Shown here one piece after another: positions 3,627 through 33,569 of a stretch of DNA of 35,317 nucleotides. The notes under the pieces were generated by a model that searched no databases, was not told the DNA's origin, and saw only the letters and a list, made by a program, of their open reading frames with translations. The stretch's first letter is position 1; every line of letters starts with the position of its first letter. Origin of the DNA: Planctomycetota bacterium. Its GTDB lineage: Bacteria; Planctomycetota; Phycisphaerae; Phycisphaerales; UBA1924. The stretch is from positions 1 through 35,317 of the forward strand of contig JANRJM010000015.1 of assembly GCA_033763975.1 (NCBI GenBank), given 5' to 3'. The position numbers and the translations under genes are program-made.

Positions 3627-4082
3627 ATGGAGAGCATCTGGATGAGCAGTCACCCGACCGTCCACGCCGCCGCCGCCGCCGAGCCCCTGGGCCCCTACCC
3701 GCACGCGCGCCGCGCGGGCAACCTGCTGTTCCTCTCGGGCATCGGCCCGCGCAAGCGCGGCACGAAGGACATCCCCGGCGCGATCGTCGGCCCCGACGGA
3801 CGCCTGACGGGCTACAGCCTCGAGGCCGAGATGCGCTCGTGCTTCGAGAACATCCGGAGCATCCTCGCCGAGGCCGACAGCCGCTGGGAGGACATCATCG
3901 ACGTGCAGGTCTTCCTCACCGACATGGCCCGCGACTGGGCGGAGTACAACCGCGTCTACGCGGAGTTCTTCCCGCCCGGTCCGCACCAGCCGACGCGAAC
4001 GACCGTCGAGGTCTCGGCCCTGCCCACCGGCGGGAACACGCCGATCCACGTCGAGATCAAGGTGATCGCCGCGATCTCGTGA
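3627..4082 (+). CDS. RidA-family protein, 2-aminomuconate deaminase-like
   Basis: A 151-residue RidA/YjgF/UK114-family protein, soluble and expected to form trimers with the active sites at subunit interfaces. Family marks are the N-terminal PLGPYPHARRAGNLLFLSG, the central helix ending in EDIIDVQVFLTDM, and RTTVEVSALP near the end. Its length and the IGPRKRGTK segment fit the 2-aminomuconate deaminase (AmnD-like) branch better than generic imine deaminases. It starts 30 bases after the aldehyde dehydrogenase and probably shares its mRNA, so the pair would oxidise 2-aminomuconate semialdehyde and then remove the amino group. ATG 3627 has AGGGG upstream. ATG 3642 (MSSHP) has GGAGA at a plausible distance and could be the true start. 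The family is certain and the specific substrate is inferred from context. Confidence 0.88.
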   Translation: MESIWMSSHPTVHAAAAAEPLGPYPHARRAGNLLFLSGIGPRKRGTKDIPGAIVGPDGRLTGYSLEAEMRSCFENIRSILAEADSRWEDIIDVQVFLTDMARDWAEYNRVYAEFFPPGPHQPTRTTVEVSALPTGGNTPIHVEIKVIAAIS

Positions 4083-4092
4083 CGCGCCGGCG

Positions 4093-4383
4093 CTAGTCCT
4101 TGCGCTTCTTCAGGCGGCGCGCCCGCTCGCCCCCGCCGTTCGACGACAGGTCCAGCATCACCGCCACCGCCATCACCGCCCACCACCAGCCGTGCACGCC
4201 CCCGCCCTCGTTCACCGAGGCCGCGTACGCCAGCGTCGTGTACGGCATGAACAGGAACCCCAGCAGGGGCCAGAACCACGTCTCGTACGCGCGACCGATG
4301 TAATCACCCGTGATCACCAGCAGGATGATCACGAAGCGCGGCAGAAAGAACGCGACGGCGGCGAGCAGGCATCCCATACCCAT
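4093..4383 (-). CDS. Small three-helix membrane protein, unknown
   Basis: A 96-residue integral membrane protein. Three hydrophobic stretches are visible: about residues 4-24 (LLAAVAFFLPRFVIILLVITG), 35-54 (TWFWPLLGFLFMPYTTLAYA) and 63-78 (GWWWAVMAVAVMLDL). The C-terminus is strongly basic (ERARRLKKRKD), which by the positive-inside rule would be cytoplasmic. It ends 10 bases from the converging RidA gene and is the last gene of a five-gene minus-strand run, 73 bases after pgpA. It resembles the many small, unnamed inner-membrane proteins of bacteria, and I give no function. Confidence 0.75.
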   Translation of the reverse strand: MGMGCLLAAVAFFLPRFVIILLVITGDYIGRAYETWFWPLLGFLFMPYTTLAYAASVNEGGGVHGWWWAVMAVAVMLDLSSNGGGERARRLKKRKD

Positions 4384-4456
4384 CTCCTTCCGATTGCCCG
4401 CCCCCGGCTTTCACCCCGGTGCATCGTTGGACGCCCCCGAACCTCGGCCCACTCCT

Positions 4457-4960
4457 TCAGCCCACCGTCGCCCGCGCACACACCTGCACCAAGACCATCG
4501 CCATCACGCCCGCCACGACGTCGTCGATCAGAATTCCCAGCCCCCCCGGCAATCGCTGCAGCCCGCGCGCCGGCCAGGGCTTCACGATGTCCAGCACGCG
4601 GAACGCCACGAACGCGAACCCGAGCGTGAACAGGTTCGCCTCGGGCGTCAGCGTCGCGCCCACCGGCAGGAACAGCAGCGGGATGCACTGCCCGCACGTC
4701 TCGTCGGCCACCGCGTTGGACGGGTCCTTCCCCCACTTCGCTTCCGCGCGGTCTCCCTGCAGCAGGCACGCGAGGCCGAAGAACACCGCCACGCCCAGCA
4801 GCACGCCGTTGTACACCCACGGCGCGGTGATCGCCCCCAGCCCCGCCGCCTCGAGGATCATCGCGAGGATGATCGGGGGCAGCGACCCCCACGTGCCCGA
4901 CGCGGGGCGCATGTACCCCAGCCCGAATGTCGTGATCGCCCACACGCCCTGTGTCCGCAT
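4457..4960 (-). CDS. pgpA: Phosphatidylglycerophosphatase A
   Basis: A 167-residue membrane enzyme that removes phosphate from phosphatidylglycerol phosphate to give phosphatidylglycerol. It shows the PgpA landmarks in order: GLGYMRPASGTWGSLPP near the N-terminus (residues 13-29), KDPSNAVADETCGQ in the middle with the acidic residues expected to hold the metal, FRVLDIVKPWPARGLQRLPGG, and GILIDDVVAGV near the end. Hydrophobic segments between these match the usual four-helix layout. The normal family length is about 160-175 residues, so it is complete. It lies in the minus-strand run between a lipoprotein gene and a small membrane protein. Family assignment is secure from the motifs. Confidence 0.92.
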   Translation of the reverse strand: MRTQGVWAITTFGLGYMRPASGTWGSLPPIILAMILEAAGLGAITAPWVYNGVLLGVAVFFGLACLLQGDRAEAKWGKDPSNAVADETCGQCIPLLFLPVGATLTPEANLFTLGFAFVAFRVLDIVKPWPARGLQRLPGGLGILIDDVVAGVMAMVLVQVCARATVG

Positions 4961-4980
4961 GGGCGCATGCTACCGCTGGT

Positions 4981-5679
4981 TCACTCGCCCTGCGAGCGCG
5001 TGAGTTCCACCGGCGGGTTGAACTCGAAGAGCGCCTTGTCGCCCTGCGCCACGAACCGCACGCTCCGCCCGAACGTCACGCGGTAGATGAGCCACAGGCG
5101 CTGGTCCGTCCGCGAGCGCGACGTCGCGGGCACTTGCGCCATCGCACTCACCGGCTCGCCCGGCTCGTACCGCACGTCCGCCCATTCGGCGTCGAGATAC
5201 GCCCAGCCCACCGGCATGTACCGCTCGCCGGCGGTGTCCACCAGCGTCGGGGCCGCTGTGCCCTCCGCCGCGCCCCGGTACTTCGACGCCGGCGACACGT
5301 CGACGAACACGATCGACACGTCCCGCGGCACGCGGATGTCCTCGACGCGGCGCACCCGATCGATGCCCGCGTCGGCCACCTGGTTCGCGGGCACCCGGGC
5401 CGCCCCGCGCACGATCCACGTGCGCGTCCGCTCCTCGACCACCTCGAGATCGCCGGTCTGCCCGCGCACGAGGGCGAAGGGCAGGCGGTTGACGACATCC
5501 ACGCCCTCGGGCGCCGGGGCCGAGCTGCGCCCGCCGCCCCCCACCACGCGCCGCTCTTCGGCGAAGGGCGACTGGCTGCCGACGCGCGCCCCGCCCGTGG
5601 GCGGGGCGGTGCTCGTGTCGCACGCGCCCAGCACGCCGACCACCCCGCCCGCCGCCAGCATTCCGAGCATCCAGCGCAT
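4981..5679 (-). CDS. Lipoprotein of unknown function
   Basis: A 232-residue protein with a classical lipoprotein signal: MRWMLGMLAAGGVVGVLGAC, lipobox LGAC, with Cys20 the expected lipidated residue. After a Ser/Gly/Pro-rich linker the mature part is a beta-rich domain of about 160 residues (VVNRLPFALV, RTWIVRGAARVP, VSIVFVDVSP, RLWLIYRVTFG). I recognise no catalytic motif. ATG 5679 was preferred over the longer open frame because GGAG precedes it by eight bases and because it gives a clean signal peptide. The gene is 20 bases from pgpA and 58 from comM, probably on one transcript. The function is unknown, and an envelope location is the only supported statement. Confidence 0.8.
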   Translation of the reverse strand: MRWMLGMLAAGGVVGVLGACDTSTAPPTGGARVGSQSPFAEERRVVGGGGRSSAPAPEGVDVVNRLPFALVRGQTGDLEVVEERTRTWIVRGAARVPANQVADAGIDRVRRVEDIRVPRDVSIVFVDVSPASKYRGAAEGTAAPTLVDTAGERYMPVGWAYLDAEWADVRYEPGEPVSAMAQVPATSRSRTDQRLWLIYRVTFGRSVRFVAQGDKALFEFNPPVELTRSQGE

Positions 5680-7465: not shown

Positions 7466-8809
7466 CTACGCCGCGTCCGCCGGGGGCGAGTCCTCGCTCT
7501 TGGGGGGCACGAACGTCGCGAGCACCTTGTCGACGCGCGTGCCGTCCATGTCGATCACCTCGAGCGTCCACCCCTGCCACGCGACCGACTCGCTCTCGGC
7601 GGGGATGTGCCCCAGCAGCGCCACCACCAGCCCGCCGACGGTGCTGACGTCGGGCAACTCCGCCTCGGCCTCCGGGGGCACCGCGCTCGCGACCACGAAC
7701 TCGTGCAGCGGAAGGCGCCCGTCGATCAGCCACGACCCGTCCGGACGCTTGATCATCGTCGGCGCGACCTCGCCCGACCGGCTGATGTCCCCCACGATCG
7801 CCCGCGTCACGTCGTTCAGCGTCACCAGCCCCAGCGTCGATCCGTACTCGTTCACCACGAACGCGATGTGCACCTTGCTCGACTGGAACTGGTCCAGCAT
7901 CCGCAGCGCGGGCATCGTCTCGGGCACGAACAGCGGCTGGCGCACCACCGACGTCACCTTGAAACTCGACCCCGACAGCAGCCCGTACGCGATCAGGTCG
8001 CGCACGTGCACCACCCCGACCAGTTTGTCCAGGTCGCCCGCGCACACCGGGAAGTGCGAGTACGGGCTCGTCCCCACCAGCACCCGCACCGCGTCGGTCG
8101 TCTCCCGCTCGTCGATCCACACGATGTCCGCGCGCGCCACCATCAGGTCCCGCACCGTCAGGTCCGCCACACGCATCGTCCGCTGGAACAGCGTCAGTTC
8201 CTGCGGCGTGAAGATCCCCGTGCTCGCCCCCCGCGCGATCAACGCCTTCACGTCGTCTTCCGACACGTCGTCGCCCGCCCGCACCTTCAGCCGCAACACC
8301 CGCAGCACCGCCTCCGTCGACCACGTCAGGATCCGCACCGGCCACGCCGTCACCGTCGACAGCACGCTCAAGGGTCTGGCGATGAGCGTCGCCACCCGCT
8401 CGGGGTAGGCCAGCGCGACGCGCTTGGGCACCAGTTCACCCACCACCAGCGACAGGTACGTAATCCCCAGCACCACCACGCCCAGCGCGATCACGTCCGC
8501 GTAGGGCTCCATCAGCCCCACCTGCGCCACCATCTTCTCCAACTTGCCCGACAGCGCGTTCTCCCCGAACGCGCCCGCCATGATCCCGATCAGCGTGATC
8601 CCCACCTGCACCGTCGACAGAAACCGCGTCGGCTCGCGCGCCAGCGCGATCGCCGCGGCCGCCCCCTTGCTCCCCGCCTTCGCATCGCGCGCCAGCCGGC
8701 TCTGGCGGCTGGTCATCACCGCCAGTTCCGACATCGCCAGCACGCCGTTCAGCACAATGAGAAAGCCCAGGATCGCCAGAGGGACCAGCATGGGTTCATT
8801 ATCGCCCAT
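7466..8809 (-). CDS. CNNM/CorC-family transporter-like membrane protein with CBS domains
   Basis: A 447-residue protein of the HlyC/CorC (CNNM, formerly DUF21) family, linked to Mg2+ or Co2+ efflux in its characterised members. The N-terminal CNNM transmembrane domain spans about residues 5-180 (LVPLAILGFLIVLNGVLAMSE, then SRQSRLARD and EPTRFLSTVQVGITLIGIMAG). Two CBS domains follow (DLMVARADIVWID; SSKVHIAFVVNEYGSTLGLVT), then a CorC_HlyC domain (DGRLPLHEF to VIDMDGTRVDKV). The start is 8809 (MGDNEP) or 8791 (MLVPLA), both close to the first helix. The frame stays open for another 800 bases upstream, but that part is antisense to ftsK. Its start diverges from ftsK across 136 bases that must hold promoters for both. 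Confidence 0.9.
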   Translation of the reverse strand: MGDNEPMLVPLAILGFLIVLNGVLAMSELAVMTSRQSRLARDAKAGSKGAAAAIALAREPTRFLSTVQVGITLIGIMAGAFGENALSGKLEKMVAQVGLMEPYADVIALGVVVLGITYLSLVVGELVPKRVALAYPERVATLIARPLSVLSTVTAWPVRILTWSTEAVLRVLRLKVRAGDDVSEDDVKALIARGASTGIFTPQELTLFQRTMRVADLTVRDLMVARADIVWIDERETTDAVRVLVGTSPYSHFPVCAGDLDKLVGVVHVRDLIAYGLLSGSSFKVTSVVRQPLFVPETMPALRMLDQFQSSKVHIAFVVNEYGSTLGLVTLNDVTRAIVGDISRSGEVAPTMIKRPDGSWLIDGRLPLHEFVVASAVPPEAEAELPDVSTVGGLVVALLGHIPAESESVAWQGWTLEVIDMDGTRVDKVLATFVPPKSEDSPPADAA

Positions 8810-8945
8810 CGGCGCAGCCGGCCACGCTCTCCCAGGTCCTTGGCGGGGTGCCGCACGCCGCGCTCCGCCCCCCCGTGCCCGCCGACGCCCGCCCCGGGGC
8901 GCTGTTTTCGCCTTCTCCGGCCCCGGTCGCCGATGAACCGGTGCC

Positions 8946-11792
8946 ATGGCTGATTCACCGCGCAAAGTCCGCGCGTCCGGCGGTCGCTCCGCCCTGACGC
9001 TGTTCACACTCATCCTCCTGCTCGGCGCGTGGGCCTTCACCGCCGCCAGCATGATCGGGTTCGATCCCAGCGACGCCCCCGGGCACGTCGTGTGGCCTTC
9101 GAACGACCCCACCGCCAACTGGTGCGGGCCATTCGGCGCCACCGTCGCGTACGCGCTGTTCAAACTGCTGGGCTCCGGCGCCTGGGTGCTGCTGATGCTC
9201 CTGGGCGTGGCGCTGACGGTCGCCGCGCTGGGCGTCCCGCTTCGCCAGGCGTTCATCCGGATGATCGGATTGATCATGCTCGCCGCGTCGGTGTCGGGGA
9301 TGCAGGCGCTGGCCTTCCCCGATTCGGGCTCGATGCCCGGGCTCGCGGGGGGGCTGGTGGGCACGGTGTCCGCCGCCGAACTGGGCGTCCGCTTCGGGCC
9401 GTTCGGCGCGGGGATCGTCCTGCTGGTGATGGGCCTGGTGGGCGCGGTCGTGGCGATGGACCATGTGGTGATCGCCGCACTCGGCTGGACGTGGGACCTG
9501 ACGCGCGAGCGCGGGGTGCCGGCGGCAAAGGTCGTGGGCGCCGCCGCGGGCGGCGCCGCGATGACCGCCGGCGAGGCAGTCGCCCGCGCCTCGGGCACCA
9601 TGATGTCGCGCCTGTGGGCCCGCGCGTTCCCGCCCAAGAAGAAGACCCGCGGCTACCGGCGCGACGACGTCTCCGACGACCCGCCCGCGTCTGGCCGCCG
9701 GACGCGCCAGCCCGCCGCCCCCGCGCCAGACCCGGCGGCCTTGGACATCGACGACCCCGACGCCGCCCCGATCCCGCTGGCCGACGCCGACGTCGAGGCC
9801 AAGCCGAGCGCCGCGAAGAGCGCGGCCAAGACGCCCCGCCCGGCGCCGAGCGATGACGACGCGGACGAACGCGAGGACGACGACGATCTGCCCGGGGCGG
9901 CCCAGGTGTACACCGAGGAGGCCCTGCGCGAGAAGATCGCCAAGCTGCCCGTCGTGTTCGGGCAGAAGGACAAGGTCGTTGCCACCGAGGCGGACCTGGT
10001 CGAGATGCGCGGGCTGGGCGCCGCGTCGGGCGCTGCGGGACCCGAGCCCGAGCAGCCCGTCAAGGAGTACGCCTTCCCGGGGCTCGACCTGCTGGAGAAC
10101 CCCGAAGAGAACTTCAACGTCAAGCTCGAGGAGTACGTGCGCGAGCAGGCGACGGCCCTGGAGTCGGCCCTGCGCCAGTACCGCATCGACGGCGAAGTCG
10201 TCGGCATCGAGTCCGGGCCGGTGATCACGCTCTTCGACGTGCGCTTGGCGCCGGGCACGAAGGTGGCGGCCCTGCAGGCGGTGAGCAGCGACATCGCGCG
10301 CTCGCTCAAGGCGGTGAACATCCGGATCGTGCCCAACCAGGCGGGGCGCGACACGGTGGGCGTGGAGGTTCCCAACTCAACGAAGGAGAAGGTGCGCCTC
10401 AAGGAACTGATGGGCAAGACGGAGAAGTTCTCGTCGATGAAGCTGCCCATGTTCCTGGGCAAGGACGCGAGCGGGGAGGCGCTGATCGAGGACCTGACGA
10501 AGATGCCGCACATGCTGATCGCCGGCACGACCGGGAGCGGCAAGAGCGTGTGCATGAACACGATCATCATGGGGTTCCTCTACACGAAGAAGCCCAGCGA
10601 ACTGAAGATGGTGCTCGTGGACCCCAAGATGGTGGAGATGAGCCAGTTCAAGGACATCCCGCATCTGATGTGCCCGGTGGTGACGGAGATGTCCAAGGCC
10701 GCCGCGATCCTGGAGTGGGCGTGCGTCAAGATGGACGAGCGGTACGAACTGCTGGCGGAGGCGGGCTGCCGCGACATCGCGTCGTACAACGACCTGGGGT
10801 GGGACGAGCTGAAGGACCGGATGCGTCCCAAGACGCCCGAGGAAGAGGCGCGCATCCCGCGCAAGCTGCCCTACATGGTGTTCATCATCGACGAGCTGGC
10901 CGACCTGATGATGACGAACAAGGAGGTCGAGGGGCACATCATCCGCATCGCGCAGAAGGCACGCGCGGTGGGCATCCACCTGATCCTGGCGACGCAGCGC
11001 CCGCAGGCGAACGTCGTGACCGGGCTCATCAAGAGCAACATGCCCTGCCGCATCACGTTCAAGGTGGCCAGCGGGATGGACTCGCGCATCGTGCTCGACC
11101 AGAAGGGGGGCGAGCTGCTGCTGGGGCACGGCGACATGCTCGTGCTCTCGCCCCGGTCGAGCAAGCTCACCCGCGCGCAGGGCACGCTGGTGGACGACCT
11201 CGAGATCCGCCGCGTCGTGCGCTTCATGCGCGACGTCGCCGGGCCCAGCTTCGAGCGCTCGCTCCTCCAGATCCGCTCGGGCGCGCCCGTCGAGGGCACC
11301 GGGCTGGGCAACCTCTCCGACGAAGAACGCCTGCTGCAGAGCAAGAACAACTCGTCGGCGTCGCTCGCGGCGGCCCAGGAAGACCCGCTCTTCCCCCGCG
11401 CGGTCGAGATCGTGCTCGAAACCCGGCGCGGGAGCGTCTCGCTCCTCCAGCGCCGCCTGGCGATCGGCTACACGCGCGCCAGCCGCCTGATCGACCTCAT
11501 GGGCATCGCGGGGATCATCTCCGACCACAAGGGCTCGGTCGCGCGCGACGTGCTCATCACGATCGAGGACTGGGACCGCATGAAGCAGCTCGCGGCCGAA
11601 GAGGCACGGGCCAAGGGCCTGGCGAGCGTCTTCACCGGCGACGCGCCCACGGGCGAACCCGGGGCCGAGGCGCCCGGGCCGCTCTTCACCGCTCCGGACG
11701 GCGGCGCGATGCCCGCGAGCATCACGAGCGAGGACGATCGGTTCGACGATGCGTTCCAGGAAGAGGCCGAGGACCCGCCGTTCCGGAACTAG
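8946..11792 (+). CDS. ftsK: DNA translocase FtsK/SpoIIIE
   Basis: A 948-residue membrane-anchored DNA pump that clears and aligns chromosome ends at the division site. N-terminal membrane segments lie within about residues 17-180, with a lone Cys/Trp-containing external loop. An acidic, Ala/Pro/Lys-rich linker runs from about 225 to 320. The motor follows: beta and alpha domains, Walker A GTTGSGKS (residues 527-534) and Walker B FIIDE (646-650), with LILATQRPQANVVTG and KSNMPCRITFKV typical of FtsK. The C-terminal winged-helix gamma domain (about 810-880) reads SVSLLQRRLAIGYTRASRLIDLMG and is expected to read polar DNA signals. It is a full-length protein with a moderate linker. Many planctomycetes lack FtsZ yet keep FtsK, so here the protein may serve segregation outside a normal divisome. 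Confidence 0.97.
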   Translation: MADSPRKVRASGGRSALTLFTLILLLGAWAFTAASMIGFDPSDAPGHVVWPSNDPTANWCGPFGATVAYALFKLLGSGAWVLLMLLGVALTVAALGVPLRQAFIRMIGLIMLAASVSGMQALAFPDSGSMPGLAGGLVGTVSAAELGVRFGPFGAGIVLLVMGLVGAVVAMDHVVIAALGWTWDLTRERGVPAAKVVGAAAGGAAMTAGEAVARASGTMMSRLWARAFPPKKKTRGYRRDDVSDDPPASGRRTRQPAAPAPDPAALDIDDPDAAPIPLADADVEAKPSAAKSAAKTPRPAPSDDDADEREDDDDLPGAAQVYTEEALREKIAKLPVVFGQKDKVVATEADLVEMRGLGAASGAAGPEPEQPVKEYAFPGLDLLENPEENFNVKLEEYVREQATALESALRQYRIDGEVVGIESGPVITLFDVRLAPGTKVAALQAVSSDIARSLKAVNIRIVPNQAGRDTVGVEVPNSTKEKVRLKELMGKTEKFSSMKLPMFLGKDASGEALIEDLTKMPHMLIAGTTGSGKSVCMNTIIMGFLYTKKPSELKMVLVDPKMVEMSQFKDIPHLMCPVVTEMSKAAAILEWACVKMDERYELLAEAGCRDIASYNDLGWDELKDRMRPKTPEEEARIPRKLPYMVFIIDELADLMMTNKEVEGHIIRIAQKARAVGIHLILATQRPQANVVTGLIKSNMPCRITFKVASGMDSRIVLDQKGGELLLGHGDMLVLSPRSSKLTRAQGTLVDDLEIRRVVRFMRDVAGPSFERSLLQIRSGAPVEGTGLGNLSDEERLLQSKNNSSASLAAAQEDPLFPRAVEIVLETRRGSVSLLQRRLAIGYTRASRLIDLMGIAGIISDHKGSVARDVLITIEDWDRMKQLAAEEARAKGLASVFTGDAPTGEPGAEAPGPLFTAPDGGAMPASITSEDDRFDDAFQEEAEDPPFRN

Positions 11793-24048: not shown

Positions 24049-24561
24049 TCAACGCCCGGGGGGCGTCTGCGGCGTGGGTGAAGGTGGTGTCGGGGTCGGC
24101 GCGGGAGCCTCGCCGGTGGCGGGGGCCGCGGGGGGCGTGTCCCCCGTGGCGGGCGGCGGCGCATCGCCCGCCGGGGGCGGGGTGGTCGCCGGCGTGCCGC
24201 CGGTGGCGGGGGCTTCGCCCGTGGCGGGCGCCGCGGCGCCGTCGGCGGAGCCCGCCTCGGACGTTGTCTCCTGCGGGCGCTGGGCCTGGATGAGCCCCTT
24301 GGAGGCGAAGTTCAGCGTGACCGCGAAGACGATGTACGCGATGAACATGATGAGCGTGAAGACGGTGAGCGCGTCGCCGGTCTTGGCGCCGAAGGCGGTC
24401 TGCCCGGAGCCGGCGCCCCCGCCGCCGAAGGCGCTGGCGAGCCCGCCTCCCTGGGGCTTCTGGATGAGCACCGTGAGGACGAGCATGACGCAAATGATGA
24501 GGAAGACGATCGCGAGGACCGCGAACGCCCACCACGACCAGCCCAGGGTGAGGATCGGCAT
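24049..24561 (-). CDS. secG: Protein translocase subunit SecG with long Pro/Ala/Thr tail
   Basis: A 170-residue SecG, the small SecYEG subunit that aids protein export. The first 80 residues are the family: helix 1 about residues 9-33 (SWWAFAVLAIVFLIICVMLVLTVL), the signature IQKPQGGGLASAFGGGG with a glycine-rich cytoplasmic loop, GAKTGDALTVFT, and helix 2 about 65-85. E. coli SecG ends near residue 110. Here an extra tail of about 80 residues (approximately 90-170) is nearly all Pro, Ala, Thr and Gly, made of repeats of PATGEAP and PATGDTPP. Such tails are low-complexity and probably disordered. It is the first gene of the secG-yicC-PDZ row. A 195-base spacer separates it from a divergent gene. 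Confidence 0.93.
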   Translation of the reverse strand: MPILTLGWSWWAFAVLAIVFLIICVMLVLTVLIQKPQGGGLASAFGGGGAGSGQTAFGAKTGDALTVFTLIMFIAYIVFAVTLNFASKGLIQAQRPQETTSEAGSADGAAAPATGEAPATGGTPATTPPPAGDAPPPATGDTPPAAPATGEAPAPTPTPPSPTPQTPPGR

Positions 24562-25556: not shown

Positions 25557-25566
25557 TCACCGGTGA
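25557..25566. promoter_or_regulatory. Palindrome 2 upstream of msrBA, candidate operator
   Basis: TCACCGGTGA is a perfect 10-base palindrome whose centre is 114 bases from that of the first copy, about eleven helical turns, so both would face the same side of the DNA. It ends 20 bases before the msrBA start, just before its ribosome binding site, a suitable place for a repressor. No experimental support; inference from sequence symmetry. Confidence 0.4.
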
Positions 25567-25586
25567 CCGTCGCGGGAGGCGATCCC

Positions 25587-26705
25587 ATGAAGTCCGTGGC
25601 GTTGTTTGCCGTGATGGTGTTCGTGGCGGTGTGCACGGCGGCGTGGGTGCTGGCGGCGTCGCAGCCTGGAAAATCGGCCCAACCGGGAAACTCCACCATG
25701 AAGACGCAGACACCCGCGGGCCCCACCGGAGGCGTGCGGTACTCCAAGTCCGGGCATGACATCACGCGGCTGGACGCCAAGCAGGTCGAGGCGCTCGCGA
25801 CGACATTGACGGAGGAAGAGCGTCGGGTGCTGCTGCGCAAGGGCACGGAGCCGGCGTTCTGCGGGAACCTCCTGGACAACAAGTTGGACGGGACGTACGC
25901 ATGCCGCCTGTGCGGCCTGCCGCTGTTCAGTTCGGAGGCGAAGTTCAACAGCGGGACGGGGTGGCCCAGTTTCTTCAAGCCGTATGACCCGGCGCACGTG
26001 GGCGAAGTCCGCGACGAATCGCACGGGATGGTGCGGACGGAGATCGTGTGCGCGCGGTGCGACGGGCACCTGGGGCACGTCTTCGAGGACGGCCCGCGTC
26101 CGACGGGGCTGCGCTACTGCCTGAACAGCGCATCGCTGACGTTCCACGAGAAGGGCACGGCGATGCCCGAGGCGTCGATGCCGGTGAAGACGGCGACGGC
26201 GTACTTCGCGGGCGGGTGCTTCTGGGGCGTGGAAGACCGCTTCCAGCAGATTCCGGGCGTGATCGACGCGGTGAGCGGGTACATGGGCGGGCGGACCCCG
26301 AACCCGACGTACAAGCAGGTGTGCACCGAGGACACCGGGCACGCCGAGACGGTGCGGGTGACGTTCGATCCGGCGCGGGTGTCGTACCAGAAACTGCTCG
26401 AGGTGTTCTTCAAGATCCACGACGCGTCGCAGGTGAACCGCCAGGGCCCGGACATCGGCACGCAGTACCGCTCGGCGGTGTTCACGGCGGACGGCACGCA
26501 GCAGGACCAGGCGACGGCGTTCATCGAGGCGCAGCGCAAGACGACGCGGTACATGCTGCGGGGCATCGCGACGCAGGTGGTGCCGGTGAGCGAGGCGGGG
26601 GCGTTCTACGCCGCCGAGGAGTACCACCAGGACTACCACGTGAAGCACGGCGGGCACTGCGCGATGCCTGACTTCGGCGAGGACGAGGCGGACGAGAAGA
26701 AGTAG
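25587..26705 (+). CDS. Membrane-anchored or exported MsrB-MsrA methionine sulfoxide reductase fusion
   Basis: A 372-residue two-domain enzyme that reduces both isomers of methionine sulfoxide in proteins. ATG 25587 follows GGGAGG by seven bases; a GTG at 25563 in frame is less likely. Residues 1-24 (MKSVALFAVMVFVAVCTAAWVL) form a signal or membrane anchor. MsrB comes first (about 55-190): CGNLLDNKLDGTYACRLCGLPLF, SGTGWPSFF, CARCDGHLGHVFEDGP, with two CxxC pairs for zinc and catalytic Cys178 in RYCLNSASL. MsrA follows (about 200-360): YFAGGCFWGVEDRFQ with nucleophile Cys211, SGYMGGRTPNPTYKQVC, GHAETV and QDYH. The B-A order is the reverse of Neisseria PilB's A-B order. Location outside the cytoplasm implies envelope repair and an exported electron donor not seen here. 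Two palindromes upstream may regulate it. Confidence 0.95.
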   Translation: MKSVALFAVMVFVAVCTAAWVLAASQPGKSAQPGNSTMKTQTPAGPTGGVRYSKSGHDITRLDAKQVEALATTLTEEERRVLLRKGTEPAFCGNLLDNKLDGTYACRLCGLPLFSSEAKFNSGTGWPSFFKPYDPAHVGEVRDESHGMVRTEIVCARCDGHLGHVFEDGPRPTGLRYCLNSASLTFHEKGTAMPEASMPVKTATAYFAGGCFWGVEDRFQQIPGVIDAVSGYMGGRTPNPTYKQVCTEDTGHAETVRVTFDPARVSYQKLLEVFFKIHDASQVNRQGPDIGTQYRSAVFTADGTQQDQATAFIEAQRKTTRYMLRGIATQVVPVSEAGAFYAAEEYHQDYHVKHGGHCAMPDFGEDEADEKK

Positions 26706-26846: not shown

Positions 26847-28088
26847 ATGTTCCGAGCGGCGTGGGCGGGTGTTGGGGCGTGGGCGCGGGTGCTCGTCGCG
26901 CTGGTTGCGCTGGCGCTGGGCACACCCAGGGCGGGCGGGCAGGACCTGGCGGATCAACTCGGGCCGATGGGGCAGGTCGTGCCCCGGGCGAGCGTCGCGA
27001 AGTTTGCCGACATGCTGGGCCTGACGGCGGACCAGCGGGAGATCGTGCGGACGCTGCACGAGACGTACCGCCTGCAGTACGGCGCGGCGATGCGGGAGGG
27101 GCGGGCGAAGTTCAAGGCGGCGCACGAGAAGGCACGGGAGGCGGGCGATTGGAACGCCGTCCGGGCCGAGGGGCAGCGGATCGCCCTGGAAACGTCGAAG
27201 CAGATCGAGGTCGTGGAGCGCGAGTTCTTCGACAACCTGCGGGCGGTGCTGACGCCCGAGCAGGAGGCCAGGTTCGGAGGTGTCGAGCGGGCGCGCCGGC
27301 GCGAGGTGGGGATGCGGTTCGCGTTCGCGTCGGGGTCGCAGGTGGACCTGAACGCGCTGTGCGAGGAGCTCAAGGTCCCGCGGGAGGGCGAGGTCGGGGC
27401 GGCGCTGCTCCGGTGGGAAGAGGACATCGACCGCGTGCTGCGCGTCCGCGAGGCGACGCTGGCGAAGGTCTTCGAGAAGGCGATGTCGACACCCAACCTG
27501 GATGACAACATGAAGCTCGTCCAGGAGATCATCGCGGAGCTCTTTCAGGACGCGTTCCGCGTGCGCGACATGAACCGGCGGTACGCGCGGGAGATCGCGG
27601 GGCTGCTCGACGCGAATGCGGCGGCGGCGTTCGACCGCGCGTTCCGGGCGCGGAGCTTCCCGGGCGTGTACCAGAAGAACGGCGTCGCGAAACTCGCGGC
27701 GGCCGTGCGGAAGGCGGGCATCGACGCGGAGCGGGCGGGAGAACTGGACCGGCTCGAGGCGGCGTACCGGCGCGACGTGATGCCGCTGAACGATCGGCTG
27801 GCGCAGTTGATCGAAGAGCGCGAGCAGGAGGCGACCACGCGGTTCGGGGAGTTGATGGCCGAGCAGTGGAGCGGGGGATCGAAGGAGAGCCCGCTGGGGG
27901 AAGCGTGGAAGGCGCGGCGGGACCTGGACGACCGGACGGTGGCGCGGCTCCGCACGCTCGCGGGGGCGGACGCGCCGACGCTGGACGAGGGCGACCGGCT
28001 GGACTGGGGGTCGGTCGCCCGCGTGATGCCGGATTTCGACGACCGGCTGCCCGAAGACTCGGACGATGACGGCGCGCCCCCGCGCTGA
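26847..28088 (+). CDS. Secreted helical protein, Spy/LTxxQ-like, unknown role
   Basis: A 413-residue exported protein with a signal peptide (hydrophobic WARVLVALVALALG, cleavage expected near AGG at residue 30). The mature part is almost all helix and strongly charged. It carries two LTxxQ-type motifs, LGLTADQREIVRTLHE (about 58-73) and VLTPEQEARF (about 134-143), like those of periplasmic Spy/CpxP chaperones, but the protein is more than twice their length. Pairs such as LLDANAAAAFDRAFRARSF may be a further divergent copy. The C-terminus is acidic (LPEDSDDDGAPPR). GGGAGG precedes the ATG. Function is unknown; a periplasmic stress or scaffold role is a guess from the motif alone. Its coding character is clear from codon bias. 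Confidence 0.75.
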   Translation: MFRAAWAGVGAWARVLVALVALALGTPRAGGQDLADQLGPMGQVVPRASVAKFADMLGLTADQREIVRTLHETYRLQYGAAMREGRAKFKAAHEKAREAGDWNAVRAEGQRIALETSKQIEVVEREFFDNLRAVLTPEQEARFGGVERARRREVGMRFAFASGSQVDLNALCEELKVPREGEVGAALLRWEEDIDRVLRVREATLAKVFEKAMSTPNLDDNMKLVQEIIAELFQDAFRVRDMNRRYAREIAGLLDANAAAAFDRAFRARSFPGVYQKNGVAKLAAAVRKAGIDAERAGELDRLEAAYRRDVMPLNDRLAQLIEEREQEATTRFGELMAEQWSGGSKESPLGEAWKARRDLDDRTVARLRTLAGADAPTLDEGDRLDWGSVARVMPDFDDRLPEDSDDDGAPPR

Positions 28089-28128: not shown

Positions 28129-29208
28129 ATGCAGGACGACACCGGGGATATCGGGGGTGCGCTGGTCGGAGCGCTGCTGCGAGAAGCGGCGGCGGAGATC
28201 GCGCGCGACGCGGTGACGGCCCTCCTCCTGGCCGACGCGGACGTGGTGGCGCGCGCGGGCGCGCAGGGTGCCGACCGCTGGCGCGAGGCGATCGGCGCGC
28301 GGGTGGTCGACCTGTCGGACGCGTTGGCGGCGGGCCTGCCGGAGATGTTCCGTTCGCAGATGGGCTGGGCGCGGGTCGCGTACGCATCGCGCGGGGTGCG
28401 GGTAAGCGACCTGGCGGCGGCGCTCGACGCGCTCGCGGGGGTGCTTCCCCGCCACGTGCCGGAGGAGGACCGCGAACTGGTGCTGGCGTATCTCCGCCCG
28501 GCGAGGGCCGACCTGGCGGGCGACGCGCCCGAGCCGCCGGCGTTCCTGCGGGCGGGCCCGGGCCTGGAGCGTGCGGCGGGCGAGTACATGCTCGCGCTGC
28601 TGGAGGGCGAGCGGGTGCGGGCGTGGGAGGTGGTCGCGGCGCTCGCGGGGCGCGGGGTGGGGACGGCGGAGATCTACACGGGCGTGCTGACGCCGGTGCT
28701 GCAGGAGATCGGGCGGATGTGGCACATGGGCGAGGTGCACATCGCGGAAGAGCACTTCGCGACGGCGACCACGCTCATCGTGATGTCGCGCCTGGCGGGG
28801 ATGGCAACCCGAGCGCCCGCGCGCGGGAAGACGGCGGTGTGCGCGGGCGTGGCGGGGAACGCCCACGAGGTGGGCCCGCGGATGGCGAGCGACCTGCTGG
28901 AGCTCGACGGGTGGCGGGTGGTGTACCTGGGCGTGGACATGCCGCGCGAGGACCTGGCGCTCGGCTGCGCGGACTTCAAGGCGGACGTGCTGGTGCTGTC
29001 GGCGGCGATCCCGGCGCACGTGCGCGAGGCGGAGGACACGATCCGCGCCCTGCGCGGGACGCTGGGGCCCGCGATGCCTCGGGTGATCGTGGGTGGCCGC
29101 CCGTTCGACGCCTATCCCGGGCTGTGGCGACAGGTGGGGGCCGACGCGCTGGCGCGCGATCCGCTGGATTGCGTGCGGCTCGCGAACGAACTGACGCGCG
29201 GCGCCTAG
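28129..29208 (+). CDS. Cobalamin-binding sensor protein with W-x9-EH photoreceptor motif, no DNA-binding domain
   Basis: A 359-residue soluble protein. Residues 1-140 are a helical domain I do not recognise (RWREAIGARVVDLSDALAAG; RSQMGWARVAYASRGVRVSDL). Then a four-helix cap (about 145-225) includes TPVLQEIGRMW and HMGEVHIAEEHFATA: Trp198, nine residues, Glu208-His209. This is the W-x9-EH pattern that marks adenosylcobalamin photoreceptors such as CarH. A Rossmann B12-binding domain follows, with GNAHEVGPRM (His246, the expected cobalt ligand, with Asn where D-x-H-x-x-G has Asp), VVYLGVDMP and VIVGG. His246 lies 37 residues after His209, compared with 35 in Thermus CarH as I recall it. No MerR domain or other output is attached, so it would act through a partner. 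An in-frame ATG at 28066 overlaps the upstream gene; 28129 is preferred. Confidence 0.85.
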   Translation: MQDDTGDIGGALVGALLREAAAEIARDAVTALLLADADVVARAGAQGADRWREAIGARVVDLSDALAAGLPEMFRSQMGWARVAYASRGVRVSDLAAALDALAGVLPRHVPEEDRELVLAYLRPARADLAGDAPEPPAFLRAGPGLERAAGEYMLALLEGERVRAWEVVAALAGRGVGTAEIYTGVLTPVLQEIGRMWHMGEVHIAEEHFATATTLIVMSRLAGMATRAPARGKTAVCAGVAGNAHEVGPRMASDLLELDGWRVVYLGVDMPREDLALGCADFKADVLVLSAAIPAHVREAEDTIRALRGTLGPAMPRVIVGGRPFDAYPGLWRQVGADALARDPLDCVRLANELTRGA

Positions 29209-30728: not shown

Positions 30729-31613
30729 GTGATCGTCCTTCTGCACGACGAGTTGATGCCGCTGGAGCGGGCGACGGTGAGCCCGCTCGACCGCGGGTTC
30801 CTGTTCGGCGACGGGGTGTACGAGGGGCTGCGCGCGTTCGGTGGGCGGGTCGTCGGGGCGGCACGGCACGTGGCGCGCCTGCGCGCGGGGCTGGACGCGG
30901 CACGGATCCCGTTCGACGCGTCCCGCCTGGACGGCGTGTGCGCGCGCCTGCTGGAGGCGAACGGGCTGCGCGACGCGTTCATCTACGTGCAGGTGACGCG
31001 GGGGACGCCCGGGCCGGGCCAGCCGGTGCGCACGCGGGTGCCCGCGGGGACGCTCACGCCGACGGTGTTCGCGTACGCGGTGCCCGCGCCGGGGCTGGAG
31101 GCCTATGCGACGCCCCCGACGAAGTCGTGCGTCACGGTGCGCGACACGCGCTGGCTGCGGGGGCGGCTGAAGTCCATCTCGCTCATGGGCAGCGTGCTGG
31201 GCGGGTTCGAGGCGCACGAGGCCGGCGCGGAGGACGCGATCTTCGTGCGCGATGGGTGCCCGGGCGGCGCGCTCGCGGCGGAATCGACCTCGGCGAACCT
31301 GGTGGCGGTGGTGTCGCGCGAGGGCCGGCCGGTGGCGATCACGCCCGCGCTCGACGACGTGCCGATCCTGGCGGGCGTAACGCGCGACCTGCTGCTCGAG
31401 GCGGCGTCGGGCGCGGGGATCGACCTCCGCGAGGGACGCCTCACGCCCCACGACCTGCGCGACGCGCGCGAGGTGATGCTGTGCGGCACGCTGACGATGG
31501 TGACGAGCGTCACCACGCTTGACGGGCGGCCTGTGGGCGATGGGACGCCCGGGCCGGTGGCCGGGCGATTGCTGGCGCTGCTGTGCCGCGTGATTCGGGA
31601 GGGGACGCCATGA
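30729..31613 (+). CDS. Class IV PLP aminotransferase (D-amino acid / branched-chain type)
   Basis: A 294-residue fold-type IV aminotransferase, a pyridoxal-phosphate enzyme. The start is GTG 30729 (MIVLLHDELMPLERATVSPLDRGFLFGDGVYEGLR), the family N-terminus; the open frame upstream is only G-rich spacer. PLP Lys148 lies in RGRLKSISLMGSVLG, the phosphate region in DARE-VMLCGTLTMVTSV, and EAGAEDAIFVRDG with AAESTSANLV matches the Glu that contacts the cofactor ring. Length and the LKS motif fit D-alanine aminotransferase better than 4-amino-4-deoxychorismate lyase, but branched-chain transaminases are close and I cannot choose. The stop overlaps the next start as ATGA, so the next gene is translationally coupled. 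No amino-acid pathway gene adjoins. Confidence 0.9.
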   Translation: MIVLLHDELMPLERATVSPLDRGFLFGDGVYEGLRAFGGRVVGAARHVARLRAGLDAARIPFDASRLDGVCARLLEANGLRDAFIYVQVTRGTPGPGQPVRTRVPAGTLTPTVFAYAVPAPGLEAYATPPTKSCVTVRDTRWLRGRLKSISLMGSVLGGFEAHEAGAEDAIFVRDGCPGGALAAESTSANLVAVVSREGRPVAITPALDDVPILAGVTRDLLLEAASGAGIDLREGRLTPHDLRDAREVMLCGTLTMVTSVTTLDGRPVGDGTPGPVAGRLLALLCRVIREGTP

Positions 31614-32314
31614 CCGGGCGAGCGCGACGGCGGGGCGTGGTGATGCTCGCGCGGCTGGTGCTGGGGTCGCTGGTGCTGGCGGGCGCGGGGCCGTACGGCT
31701 GCGCGACGTCGCCGCCGGTCGCGGAGCCGTTCGTCCGCGATCGGACGGGCGCCGCGACGCGGGCGATGAACACGGCGCTGCACCATCAGCGTGAGGCGGG
31801 GGACGGGCTGCTCGAGACGCTGGAAAGCCTGCGGTCGGTGGAGCTCGAGGCGTTGACGCCCGCGGCGGCGTACGACCGGGCCCGGCGCGGGCTGCTGCGC
31901 GCCGATTCTCGCATCAGCAGCGCGGAGGCCGCCATGCGGGCCGCGGACGCGCGGGCGGCGGACCTGGCGGAGCAGTGGAAGGCGGAGCTGCGCCTGTACA
32001 ACGACGCGGCGCTGCGGGAGAGCGCGTCGGCCCGGCTGGGGGCGCTGCGGGTAGCGCTCGACGAAGCGACGGCGTCGCTGCGCCGGTCGCTGGCGACGCT
32101 CGCGCCGGTGCGGCGGGAGTTGACGGACCGCGCGTTGTACCTGAAACACAGCCGCGACTCGGGGGAGTTCGTACCGGCGCCGATCTCGGACGAGGGGCTG
32201 GCGGCGTACGACGCGGCGCGAGAGAACCTGCGGACGACGATCGCGCAGAGCGAGGCGGCGGTCAGACACCTGGCTGAGGTGCTGCGGCGAGAGGGGCCGC
32301 CATCGACGCCGTGA
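31610..32314 (+). CDS. Divergent DUF2959-type exported protein, paralogue 1
   Basis: A 234-residue protein starting at ATG 31610, overlapping the aminotransferase stop (ATGA). The N-terminus has a basic stretch and a hydrophobic segment (RLVLGSLVLAGAG) ending in PYGC at Cys31; as a lipobox this is weak, so lipidation is uncertain. The mature part is helical and parallels the protein at 32901: EQWKAELRLYNDAALRESA here against KEWERELGEYNSEQLRRES there, and LAPVRRELTDRALYLKHS against MDPVLGALGDQVLYLKHK. I take it as a diverged DUF2959 paralogue that has lost the usual LNAxAI region after YLKH. Its last 53 bases overlap the opposing SRPBCC gene. Function of DUF2959 is unknown. Confidence 0.72.
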   Translation: MTGRARRRGVVMLARLVLGSLVLAGAGPYGCATSPPVAEPFVRDRTGAATRAMNTALHHQREAGDGLLETLESLRSVELEALTPAAAYDRARRGLLRADSRISSAEAAMRAADARAADLAEQWKAELRLYNDAALRESASARLGALRVALDEATASLRRSLATLAPVRRELTDRALYLKHSRDSGEFVPAPISDEGLAAYDAARENLRTTIAQSEAAVRHLAEVLRREGPPSTP

Positions 32315-32789
32315 GGGGCGCCGGGCCCAGCGTGATCGGGGGTGCCGCGAACCGGCGCGCGAGTGCGGCGTTTCGGAACGCGAAGATCCGCTCGATGTCC
32401 GGGCGCACGAGGAGCCGCTCGACGAGCGGGCCGCCGTGGTGCGCGTAGCGGACGACATCGCGGCATCGCGTTCCCGTCGGTGTGGGCTCGAACGTGTGCT
32501 CGTGCACCCAGAGGGCGTAGGGACCCCGGATCTGCTCGTCGACGAAGCGGTGCGGGGGATCCCACGCGCTGATGCGCGTGCGCCAGCCCATGGGCACGCC
32601 CCGCAGGCGGATCGAGTAGTCGATCAGCGTTCCGACCTGCATGCGGATGGGGGGCGGGGTGAGGATCCGGAACCGCAGGTGCGGGGGCGTGATGGCGTCA
32701 AGGTTCGCAGCGTCGGCGAAGAACGGGAAGACCTCGGCGGGCGGATAGGGCAGGTCGAGAGAGGTGATAAGAAGGCGTTCACGTGGCAT
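32262..32789 (-). CDS. SRPBCC-family (ligand-binding) protein
   Basis: A 175-residue START/SRPBCC-like protein. ATG 32789 begins MPRERLLITSLDLPYPPAEVF; the sequence PFFADAANLDAITPPHLRFRILTPPP is the usual opening of the group that COG4276 covers, and DYSIRLRGVPMGWRTRISAWDPPHRFVDEQIRGPYALWVHEHTFEP is its core, with the helix-grip strand FE-PTPTGTRCRDVVRYAH. Such proteins bind hydrophobic ligands in a cavity; the ligand is unknown. The last 17 codons (Ala/Pro-rich) run antisense through the end of the DUF2959-type gene. It is transcribed away from the second DUF2959 gene across 111 bases. No catalytic residues can be named. Confidence 0.87.
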   Translation of the reverse strand: MPRERLLITSLDLPYPPAEVFPFFADAANLDAITPPHLRFRILTPPPIRMQVGTLIDYSIRLRGVPMGWRTRISAWDPPHRFVDEQIRGPYALWVHEHTFEPTPTGTRCRDVVRYAHHGGPLVERLLVRPDIERIFAFRNAALARRFAAPPITLGPAPLTASMAAPLAAAPQPGV

Positions 32790-32900
32790 GCGGGAGGGGT
32801 TCGATCGCGCGCGGAGGGCGGATGCACGTCGGGGAACTCCCGGGGCGGTGCCCGCCCCCGGGAGCGCCGGTGCCCGTACCATCGCGCCGCGGAGGTGCAC

Positions 32901-33569
32901 ATGCGGCGTGTTCTCAGAGCAGGGCTGGCGTGCGTGCTGGCGGGTGCGTGCGTCGGAGTGGCGGGGTGTTCGAGCGCGAAGATCGCGCTGAAGGAGCAAC
33001 TGGGCTACGCGAAGCGCGAGCAGCTCGTGGACGCCGTGACGGACGCGCGGGACGAGCAGGAGAAGGCGAAGACGCAGTTCGCGAGCGCGCTCGACGAGTT
33101 CCTGGCGATCACCAAGGTGCCGGCGGGCGAGTGGGAGGGGCAGTACCGGGCGCTCTCGCGCCAGCACGAGCGCGCGAAGGACCAGGCCGACGCGGTGCGC
33201 TCGGAGATCCGCGAGGTGGACCGGGTGGCGGCGGCGCTGTTCAAGGAATGGGAGCGGGAACTGGGGGAGTACAACAGCGAGCAGCTGCGGCGCGAGTCGC
33301 AGCGCGACCTGGACGACACACGGCGCCAGTACGACCGGCTGTACGCGGCGATGCAGGCCGCGGAACGCAAGATGGACCCGGTGCTGGGCGCGCTGGGCGA
33401 CCAGGTGCTGTACCTGAAGCACAAGCTGAACGCGGCGGCGATCGCCGGGCTGCAGGGCAACGCGGCGCGGATCGAGACGGACGTGTCGGCGCTGCTGCGC
33501 GAGATGGAAGCGGCGATCGCGGAGAGCAACCGGTTCATCGAGCAGATGCGGGCGGGCGCGGGGGGCTGA
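32901..33569 (+). CDS. DUF2959-family lipoprotein, paralogue 2
   Basis: A 222-residue lipoprotein that follows the DUF2959 pattern closely. ATG 32901 has GGAGG five bases upstream. The signal ends in VAGC with Cys23 lipidated. Then GYAKREQLVDAVTDARDEQEKAKTQF, FKEWERELGEYNSEQLRRES, RQYDRLYAAMQAAERKMDPVLGALGDQVLYLKHKLNAAAIAGL and ESNRFIEQMR cover the family end to end. It is predicted to be helical with several coiled-coil stretches and lies in the periplasm. The family has no known function. It is separated from its diverged paralogue (31610-32314) by the opposite-strand SRPBCC gene, so the pair probably arose by duplication. The longer open frame upstream is not coding. Confidence 0.92.
   Translation: MRRVLRAGLACVLAGACVGVAGCSSAKIALKEQLGYAKREQLVDAVTDARDEQEKAKTQFASALDEFLAITKVPAGEWEGQYRALSRQHERAKDQADAVRSEIREVDRVAAALFKEWERELGEYNSEQLRRESQRDLDDTRRQYDRLYAAMQAAERKMDPVLGALGDQVLYLKHKLNAAAIAGLQGNAARIETDVSALLREMEAAIAESNRFIEQMRAGAGG

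Follow-up and report, generated by a model that had tools for sequence, protein, structure and literature searches.

What is the task of a cobalamin-binding protein that carries the residues of a CarH-type light sensor and no DNA-binding domain? The question is raised by a gene of the window, the whole 35,317-nt stretch of planctomycetal DNA analysed here, whose product an earlier note, made from the letters alone, had described as a stand-alone B12 protein with an unrecognised helical front domain. The reading that we consider moderately probable is a soluble adenosylcobalamin (AdoCbl) light sensor, photocobilin-like with its globin in front, whose target, reached through protein contact, would be a photo-oxidative ECF sigma factor regulon. 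The features to which the argument refers are the following.

28129..29208, + strand: globin-first photocobilin-like B12 protein, 359 aa (open reading frame, Pfam, homologue alignment and AlphaFold2)
28150..28518, + strand: photoglobin (phycobiliprotein-like globin) domain, residues 8-130 (profile, AlphaFold2 and fold match)
28279..28290, + strand: W51-R-E-A54, where some bilin-type members carry C-x-x-D; A54 aligns with SasPcob Asp270
28366..28368, + strand: W80, aligned with SasPcob Trp296; Trp in 69 of 70 members, with one gap
28564..28803, + strand: four-helix part of the cobalamin domain (PF02607), residues 146-225 (Pfam and AlphaFold2)
28720..28725, + strand: W198 and H199 (sequence and alignment; roles from PMC11796333 and PMC10979010)
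28750..28755, + strand: E208-H209 of W-x9-EH (sequence and alignment)
28831..29196, + strand: Rossmann part of the cobalamin domain (PF02310), residues 235-356 (Pfam and AlphaFold2)
28864..28866, + strand: H246, predicted cobalt ligand (sequence and alignment)
26847..28088, + strand: LTXXQ-family protein, 40 nt upstream of the B12 gene, a possible operon partner
25563..26705, + strand: MsrA-MsrB fusion, two genes upstream of the B12 gene

Besides the start at 28129, a second in-frame ATG is present at 28066, and scans of the window for Rfam families, tRNAs and tandem repeats gave nothing bearing on the B12 gene. The AlphaFold2 model of the whole protein is of high confidence (pLDDT 93.2, pTM 0.88).

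The residues singled out by the earlier note are indeed where it had placed them. Trp198, Glu208, His209 and His246 occupy the claimed positions with spacings of 10 and 11, and Asn replaces the usual Asp or Glu of the ligand motif (N244-A-H246-E-V-G249); across 70 aligned members this position is N in 40, D in 19 and E in 10, with one gap. The lack of a MerR domain was likewise confirmed, as Pfam up to E 1 recovered the two cobalamin halves (B12-binding_2 at 155-222 and B12-binding at 236-340) and neither MerR nor any further domain, RskA_C included. Direct DNA binding is therefore not expected. The light-response signature described by Yu et al. (2024; PMC11796333), consisting of GxxW, EH, GxxH and GxxxP, is complete in G195-W198, E208-H209, G243-H246 and G268-P272, so that the CarH-type light signature of the photocobilin cobalamin domain is present, with the strict E/DxH form reading NxH. 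A whole-protein search of 61 genomes chosen by kinship, that of the window included, yielded 17 strong full-length copies in 16 genomes, counting the window's own. No substitution occurs at W198, E208, H209, H246, G195, G268 or P272 among the window protein and 15 homologues from this search, and for this reason the signature cannot be put down to chance. All eight signature residues are kept in 16 of these 17 pattern-free copies, the exception (L054) lacking G243. They are also kept in 58 of the 70 non-duplicate members, a figure that is partly a product of construction because 53 of the 70 stem from peptide patterns (57 loci in all) holding parts of WH and AEEH. His199, found in 14 of the 17 pattern-free copies and 54 of the 70 members, corresponds in position to H132 of TtCarH, which is the second His in the light state of that protein; the residue is Gln in SasPcob and Tyr in AbDPcob (PMC11796333). 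In relatives, the signature Trp stacks on the adenosine (PMC11796333; PMC10979010).

The front half is no unrecognised helical domain: both profile and fold identify it as a photoglobin. A profile built from residues 1-135 of the window protein and 15 homologues was searched against PDB sequences, and the best match was the SasPcob globin (E 1.2e-8), followed by AbDPcob (3.8e-4) and by allophycocyanin subunits (0.03 to 0.26), with a hemoglobin (0.73) and a kinase (0.77) next; a comparison with the single sequence gave a hint only (domain E 0.67). Since the VIA-align lists for the whole model were filled by the cobalamin domain, the globin domain was predicted (pLDDT 92.5, pTM 0.86) and searched alone. 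All 50 Foldseek matches listed were phycobiliproteins or their engineered relative smURFP, the best at E 1.9e-3 and none at E 0.001 or better, and VIA-align returned allophycocyanin at Z 17.9 (rmsd 1.9-2.1 over 131-132 residues), smURFP at 17.3 and the SasPcob globin at 15.8 (rmsd 3.6 over 125 residues), so that the photoglobin fold is placed at Z 15-18.

A photoglobin and a CarH-type cobalamin domain in the same chain, with no DNA-binding domain, are the parts of the photocobilins SasPcob (8J2W/8J2X) and AbDPcob (8J2Y) (Zhang et al., 2024), of which SasPcob is stand-alone like the window protein. The window protein has these parts in reverse order, with the globin in front rather than behind. 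This order is not the new architecture that had been suspected, as globin-B12 proteins with the cobalamin domain at either end have already been published, Zhang et al. sorting photocobilins by an N- or C-terminal cobalamin domain (PMC10979010).

What sets the window protein apart is its pigment site. In SasPcob, Asp270 contacts three pyrrole rings of the bilin and Trp296 touches ring D (PMC10979010), and in photoglobins the CXRD motif of phycobiliproteins takes the form CXQD (PMC10151467, 2023). With the index of the SasPcob PDB chain running 6 below the numbering of the paper, as shown by Trp61, His108 and Trp296, the alignment places Ala54 at Asp270 and Trp80 at Trp296. The window protein thus has neither Asp270 nor C-x-x-D, for which reason it is called photocobilin-like, although the Asp is also missing from AbDPcob, which its authors class as a photocobilin. 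Position 51 is W in 61 of the 70 members, C in four, S in two, and I, M or a gap in one each. The eight members with a residue other than W here all carry D54, and among the 61 W51 members D54 is present in two and E54 in four, with no acid at 54 in 55. A quick tree of 68 of the 70 rows (L098 and L115 left out), built without columns 47-64 and rooted at its midpoint, with 80% support not reached at 23 of 65 inner branches, sets the eight non-W51 members on one side of a branch (SH-aLRT 96). Beside them stand seven W51 members that hold all six W51 rows with an acid at 54, and the remaining 53 rows are W51 and never acidic at 54. Such a distribution has the appearance of a pigment site remodelled step by step, in a direction that is inferred. 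With Trp51 in place of Cys and no acid at 54, bilin binding is probably lost or weak in the W51 type. The W51 branch was not found in print in the literature searched.

The strongest competitor for this part of the argument is an ordinary photocobilin that binds AdoCbl and biliverdin and senses red light as well, with only the domain order swapped. The two domains are those of SasPcob, the Trp equivalent to its Trp296 is nearly universal in the family, the genome of the window has a heme oxygenase match (52.5 bits), and AbDPcob, with His for Asp, still responds to red light at low biliverdin occupancy (PMC10979010). The replacement of Asp270 by Ala and of the C-x-x-D Cys by Trp in most members counts against it, and on balance we regard this reading as unlikely. 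Heme oxygenase (PF01126) might seem to argue in the same direction, giving no match in seven of the 16 kin genomes that hold the protein and in 35 of 49 named-locus genomes of unstated completeness (14 with a match at E 1e-3, 13 of them over the cut-off). It is uninformative, since it was also not found in six of the seven named genomes with bilin-type members (L088, L099, L100, L108, L111, L112 and L113), L112 alone having a match. As a marker of bilin use, heme oxygenase was therefore rejected: it is found in nine of 16 kin genomes with the protein and 25 of 45 without it (p 1.0), and because its occurrence does not follow type, it fails to separate the bilin and non-bilin readings.

One family member, L055 (G015:C21), has a heme oxygenase frame nearby, the only such case within the flanks searched. 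Its C51-x-x-D54 globin-B12 copy (8146-9258, - strand) is directly followed by a divergent heme oxygenase frame (7594-8142, - strand; 29.5 bits). The same genome also holds a W51 copy, near which no heme oxygenase was found, and the two copies form a natural pair for comparing bilin use.

If the protein does not bind DNA, its gene neighbours may indicate where its signal goes. A gene for a SigK-like ECF sigma factor was found in the flanks of 20 of the 70 non-duplicate loci and not in those of the other 50 (up to 8 kb on each side, some contigs being short). It lies within 200 nt of the B12 gene in 12, always on the same strand, and at L079, L094, L096 and L105 there is a 4-nt overlap between the end of the sigma gene, at its stop, and a candidate start codon. 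In 13 genomes sigma and photosensor genes are same-strand neighbours at most 561 nt apart, with sigma first in 11 and the photosensor first in two. Next to the B12 gene of the window no sigma gene was found; this genome has the sigma gene on contig 17, flanked by fasciclin and RskA genes, and it is the target we would propose here. In 18 genomes, chosen because a sigma gene is nearby (those of the 20 loci except L044 and L115), the sigma within 2 kb of the B12 gene is the genome-best copy, at 136-453 bits, with any other copy at 104.1 or below.

Furthermore, the two genes tend to occur together in a set of genomes that was not selected for a nearby sigma gene. Among the 61 kin genomes, a sigma match of at least 125 bits, a threshold set after the list was seen at the gap between genome-best scores of 125.8 and 110.3, is present in all 16 with a W51-type copy and in 18 of the 45 others (Fisher p 1.4e-5), which amounts to 18 kin genomes having the sigma without a W51-type sensor. 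The contrast recurs within the window's own family (9/9 vs 16/28, p 0.018) and in the other families (7/7 vs 2/17, p 1e-4), and it narrows at a cut-off of E 1e-22 (16/16 vs 35/45, p 0.05); all these p-values are too small because the genomes are related. One further kin genome, G041, placed in these counts among those without a W51-type copy, encodes a divergent globin-first B12 protein (L025, match 1501-2439, + strand) with 25% identity, W-x9-EH and, by alignment, M51 and D54, a bilin-type member inside the same order that stands outside the 70 rows. G041 has no sigma match, so the tie to sigma is one of the W51 type; with G041 counted in, the figures become 16/17 vs 18/44 (p 1.3e-4). In G005 (L024), a weak match is confined to the cobalamin domain and does not reach the globin. 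Sigma linkage of a globin-B12 gene was not found in print in the literature searched.

A bolder form of this link concerns the anti-sigma factor. A search of 19 genomes with one Pfam model (PF10099, RskA_C), and hence for one anti-sigma family, gave matches in four, namely the genome of the window, G073, G075 and G104, always next to this sigma. None was found in the 13 genomes in which photosensor and sigma are neighbours, and four of the six others have one (Fisher p 0.004), a contrast that reflects few events because the 11 sigma-first genomes form one clade. Nothing else that recurs in at least four loci stood out next to sigma there, although small genes might have escaped notice. This absence beside photosensor-sigma pairs was not found in print in the literature searched. 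Because the RskA match is missing just where the photosensor adjoins sigma, the globin-B12 protein might itself be a light-operated anti-sigma factor in these 13 genomes (11 of them one clade): its dark AdoCbl form would hold sigma and light would release it, with the globin as sigma-binding or lid domain and Trp51 filling the old pigment site. We regard this version as tentative and rather doubtful, the functional replacement of RskA by the photosensor being suggested by gene order only.

The neighbourhoods further suggest a physiological setting for the sensor. Over the 70 loci, neighbours include fasciclin genes (16), RskA-type anti-sigma genes (6), cyclopropane fatty acid (CFA) synthase genes (6) and DUF1295 genes (6). 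From the neighbour lists antisense shadow frames had been set aside by eye, and the neighbours of L087 and L116 are partly annotated. MsrAB and DUF2959 genes accompany the homologue in L067, L068 and L069, as they do in the window. The earlier statement that no photolyase or carotenoid genes flank the gene holds for 20 reading frames of the window that were searched with Pfam, which are part of the open reading frames and include some shadow frames. It does not extend to the homologues, since photolyase-like genes or a piece of one occur near four relatives: L076 and L078 have photolyase-like proteins with FAD_binding_7 under its cut-off, L083 has a partial relative without a Pfam match, together with a DUF1365/amine-oxidase frame and a desaturase, and L096 has a DPRP protein. 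In the singlet-oxygen response of Rhodobacter sphaeroides, cfaS and phrA belong to the RpoE regulon, together with genes for a fasciclin protein and an SDR, and levels of Msr proteins increase (PMC7074977). Light also induces two fasciclin genes of Mycobacterium kansasii that have putative SigK sites (PMC9861118). The neighbours described above resemble the known singlet-oxygen response.

It may be asked whether such a system must sense light at all. Many ECF systems sense oxidants, not light, and a sensor of cobalamin, heme or redox state could use the same fold in the manner of SCHIC or AerR, to which the cobalamin domain is indeed similar (AppA SCHIC, Z 21.4; AerR, Z 20.3). Comparison of folds ranked photocobilin cobalamin domains first (AbPcob and SasPcob, both Z 27.5) and CtMerR next (24.5). 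By sequence, the nearest solved relatives are CtMerR (E 9e-20), SasPcob (2e-16) and CarH (5.7e-14). Against a sensor not driven by light stand the complete light signature in nearly all pattern-free copies, the light response of CtMerR and photocobilins that have this signature (PMC11796333), and the four neighbourhoods with photolyase-like genes or a piece of one, so that we hold such a sensor to be improbable, somewhat more so than the biliverdin photocobilin. A corrinoid carrier of a methyltransferase system is very improbable indeed: despite a fold score of Z 23.9 for the monomethylamine corrinoid protein 3ezx and 68.3 of 370 bits for the NCBIfam MtgC_2 model (MtbC 40.8 of 350, pyl_corrinoid 40.2 of 215.3), the CarH model scores higher (76.9 of 400 bits, like the others far under its cut-off), the carrier 1y80 (E 7.8e-11) falls behind CtMerR, SasPcob and CarH, W-x9-EH is kept, a globin domain is present, and no methyltransferase was seen among the 20 window frames scanned.

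For the AdoCbl light sensor acting by protein contact, the following course of events can be proposed. In the dark, AdoCbl would lie between the helix bundle and the Rossmann fold, with His246 below the cobalt and with Trp198 and Glu208/His209 around the adenosine and across a head-to-tail dimer. Light would break the Co-C bond and the dimer would open, with the upper site possibly taken by His199 in the way that H132 takes it in TtCarH. The role of the globin would be that of a scaffold or a surface for contacts, not that of a strong bilin antenna, and the output would be a direct contact that frees or restrains the SigK-like ECF sigma factor, whether or not RskA takes part, this sigma presumably controlling photo-oxidative defence. 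Domains, fold, signature, changed pigment-site residues and the link to sigma are results of the computation; the AdoCbl and light chemistry, the opening of the dimer, the contact with sigma or RskA and the sigma on contig 17 as target are the inferred part. The suggestion that the protein is light- or B12-responsive and works through a partner is supported, the cobalamin domain being of CarH type, probably light-responsive, free of a DNA-binding domain and expected to work through a partner, with CtMerR, SasPcob and CarH nearest. The comparison with AerR-type antirepressors is an analogy only; the partner to which gene order points is an ECF sigma / anti-sigma system.

Several known systems share parts of this arrangement. 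CarH/LitR and CtMerR, the latter the closest solved protein by sequence, have the light signature and the AdoCbl site in common with the window protein, but they carry a MerR domain where it has a globin. AerR/PpaA is likewise a B12-domain regulator that works through a partner; the window protein differs in its globin domain, and the recurrent neighbour found for the globin-B12 gene is an ECF sigma gene. The RpoE-ChrR (Rhodobacter) and SigK-RskA regulons share the ECF sigma, the RskA-type anti-sigma and the fasciclin, CFA synthase and photolyase-like neighbours; unlike them, the present clusters include a B12 photosensor gene, in 13 genomes directly beside sigma and with no RskA match. For photocobilins, Zhang et al. 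showed that the domain can act on a separate protein, and they suggest for SasPcob partners with STAS ('AntiSigma factor antagonist'), SpoIIE and PP2C domains and a role in the stress response (PMC10979010). A general link between photocobilins and sigma regulation has thereby already been proposed, whereas no ECF sigma or RskA neighbour was found named there. As far as the search extended, the W51 type with its changed bilin-site residues, the tie to an ECF sigma factor and the missing RskA match are new, and the globin-first order is already known.

If the proposed mechanism is correct, the link from light to an ECF sigma factor would be direct, with no DNA-binding photoreceptor in between, in a range that, judging from record titles, includes Phycisphaerales, Pirellulales and some Gammaproteobacteria. 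The W51 type would also exemplify a bilin-type globin that keeps its place in a photosensor after the residues of the pigment site have changed, and it could furnish a candidate green-light tool with a sigma factor as its output.

Other relatives and neighbours came to light in the course of the searches. L056 (5548-6495, - strand) and L057 (7882-9177, - strand) are MerR-type B12-domain regulators whose genes lie between a fasciclin gene and a heme oxygenase gene; both keep W-x9-EH, but where the D/E/N-x-H ligand motif would be expected none was seen. On contig 18 of the window's own genome, L058 (8146-8961, - strand) is a second stand-alone cobalamin-domain protein (271 aa), in which both W-x9-EH and the ligand motif are missing; an ECF sigma gene lies about 2 kb away, and many kin genomes have matches that are similar in extent. 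Spirochaete frames of 521-694 aa (L108, 6558-8639; L111, 6564-8639; L113, 3406-4968; all + strand) have a C51/D54 globin-B12 unit at their end, with no Pfam match to the front part of L108 and L113, and a gene similar to the CHASE kinase gene of L094 lies upstream. A D54-type globin-B12 protein (L100, 7794-8927, + strand) is found in a Methanoregula (archaeal) genome. Near the sigma-B12 pair of L090, an AhpC/TSA protein is fused to a SOUL heme-binding domain (4003-5541, + strand), and similar frames occur elsewhere. In the window itself, two neighbouring DUF2959 genes lie at 31583-33569, and an imperfect array of 29-base repeats (24086-24213) is contained within a SecG-like gene frame.
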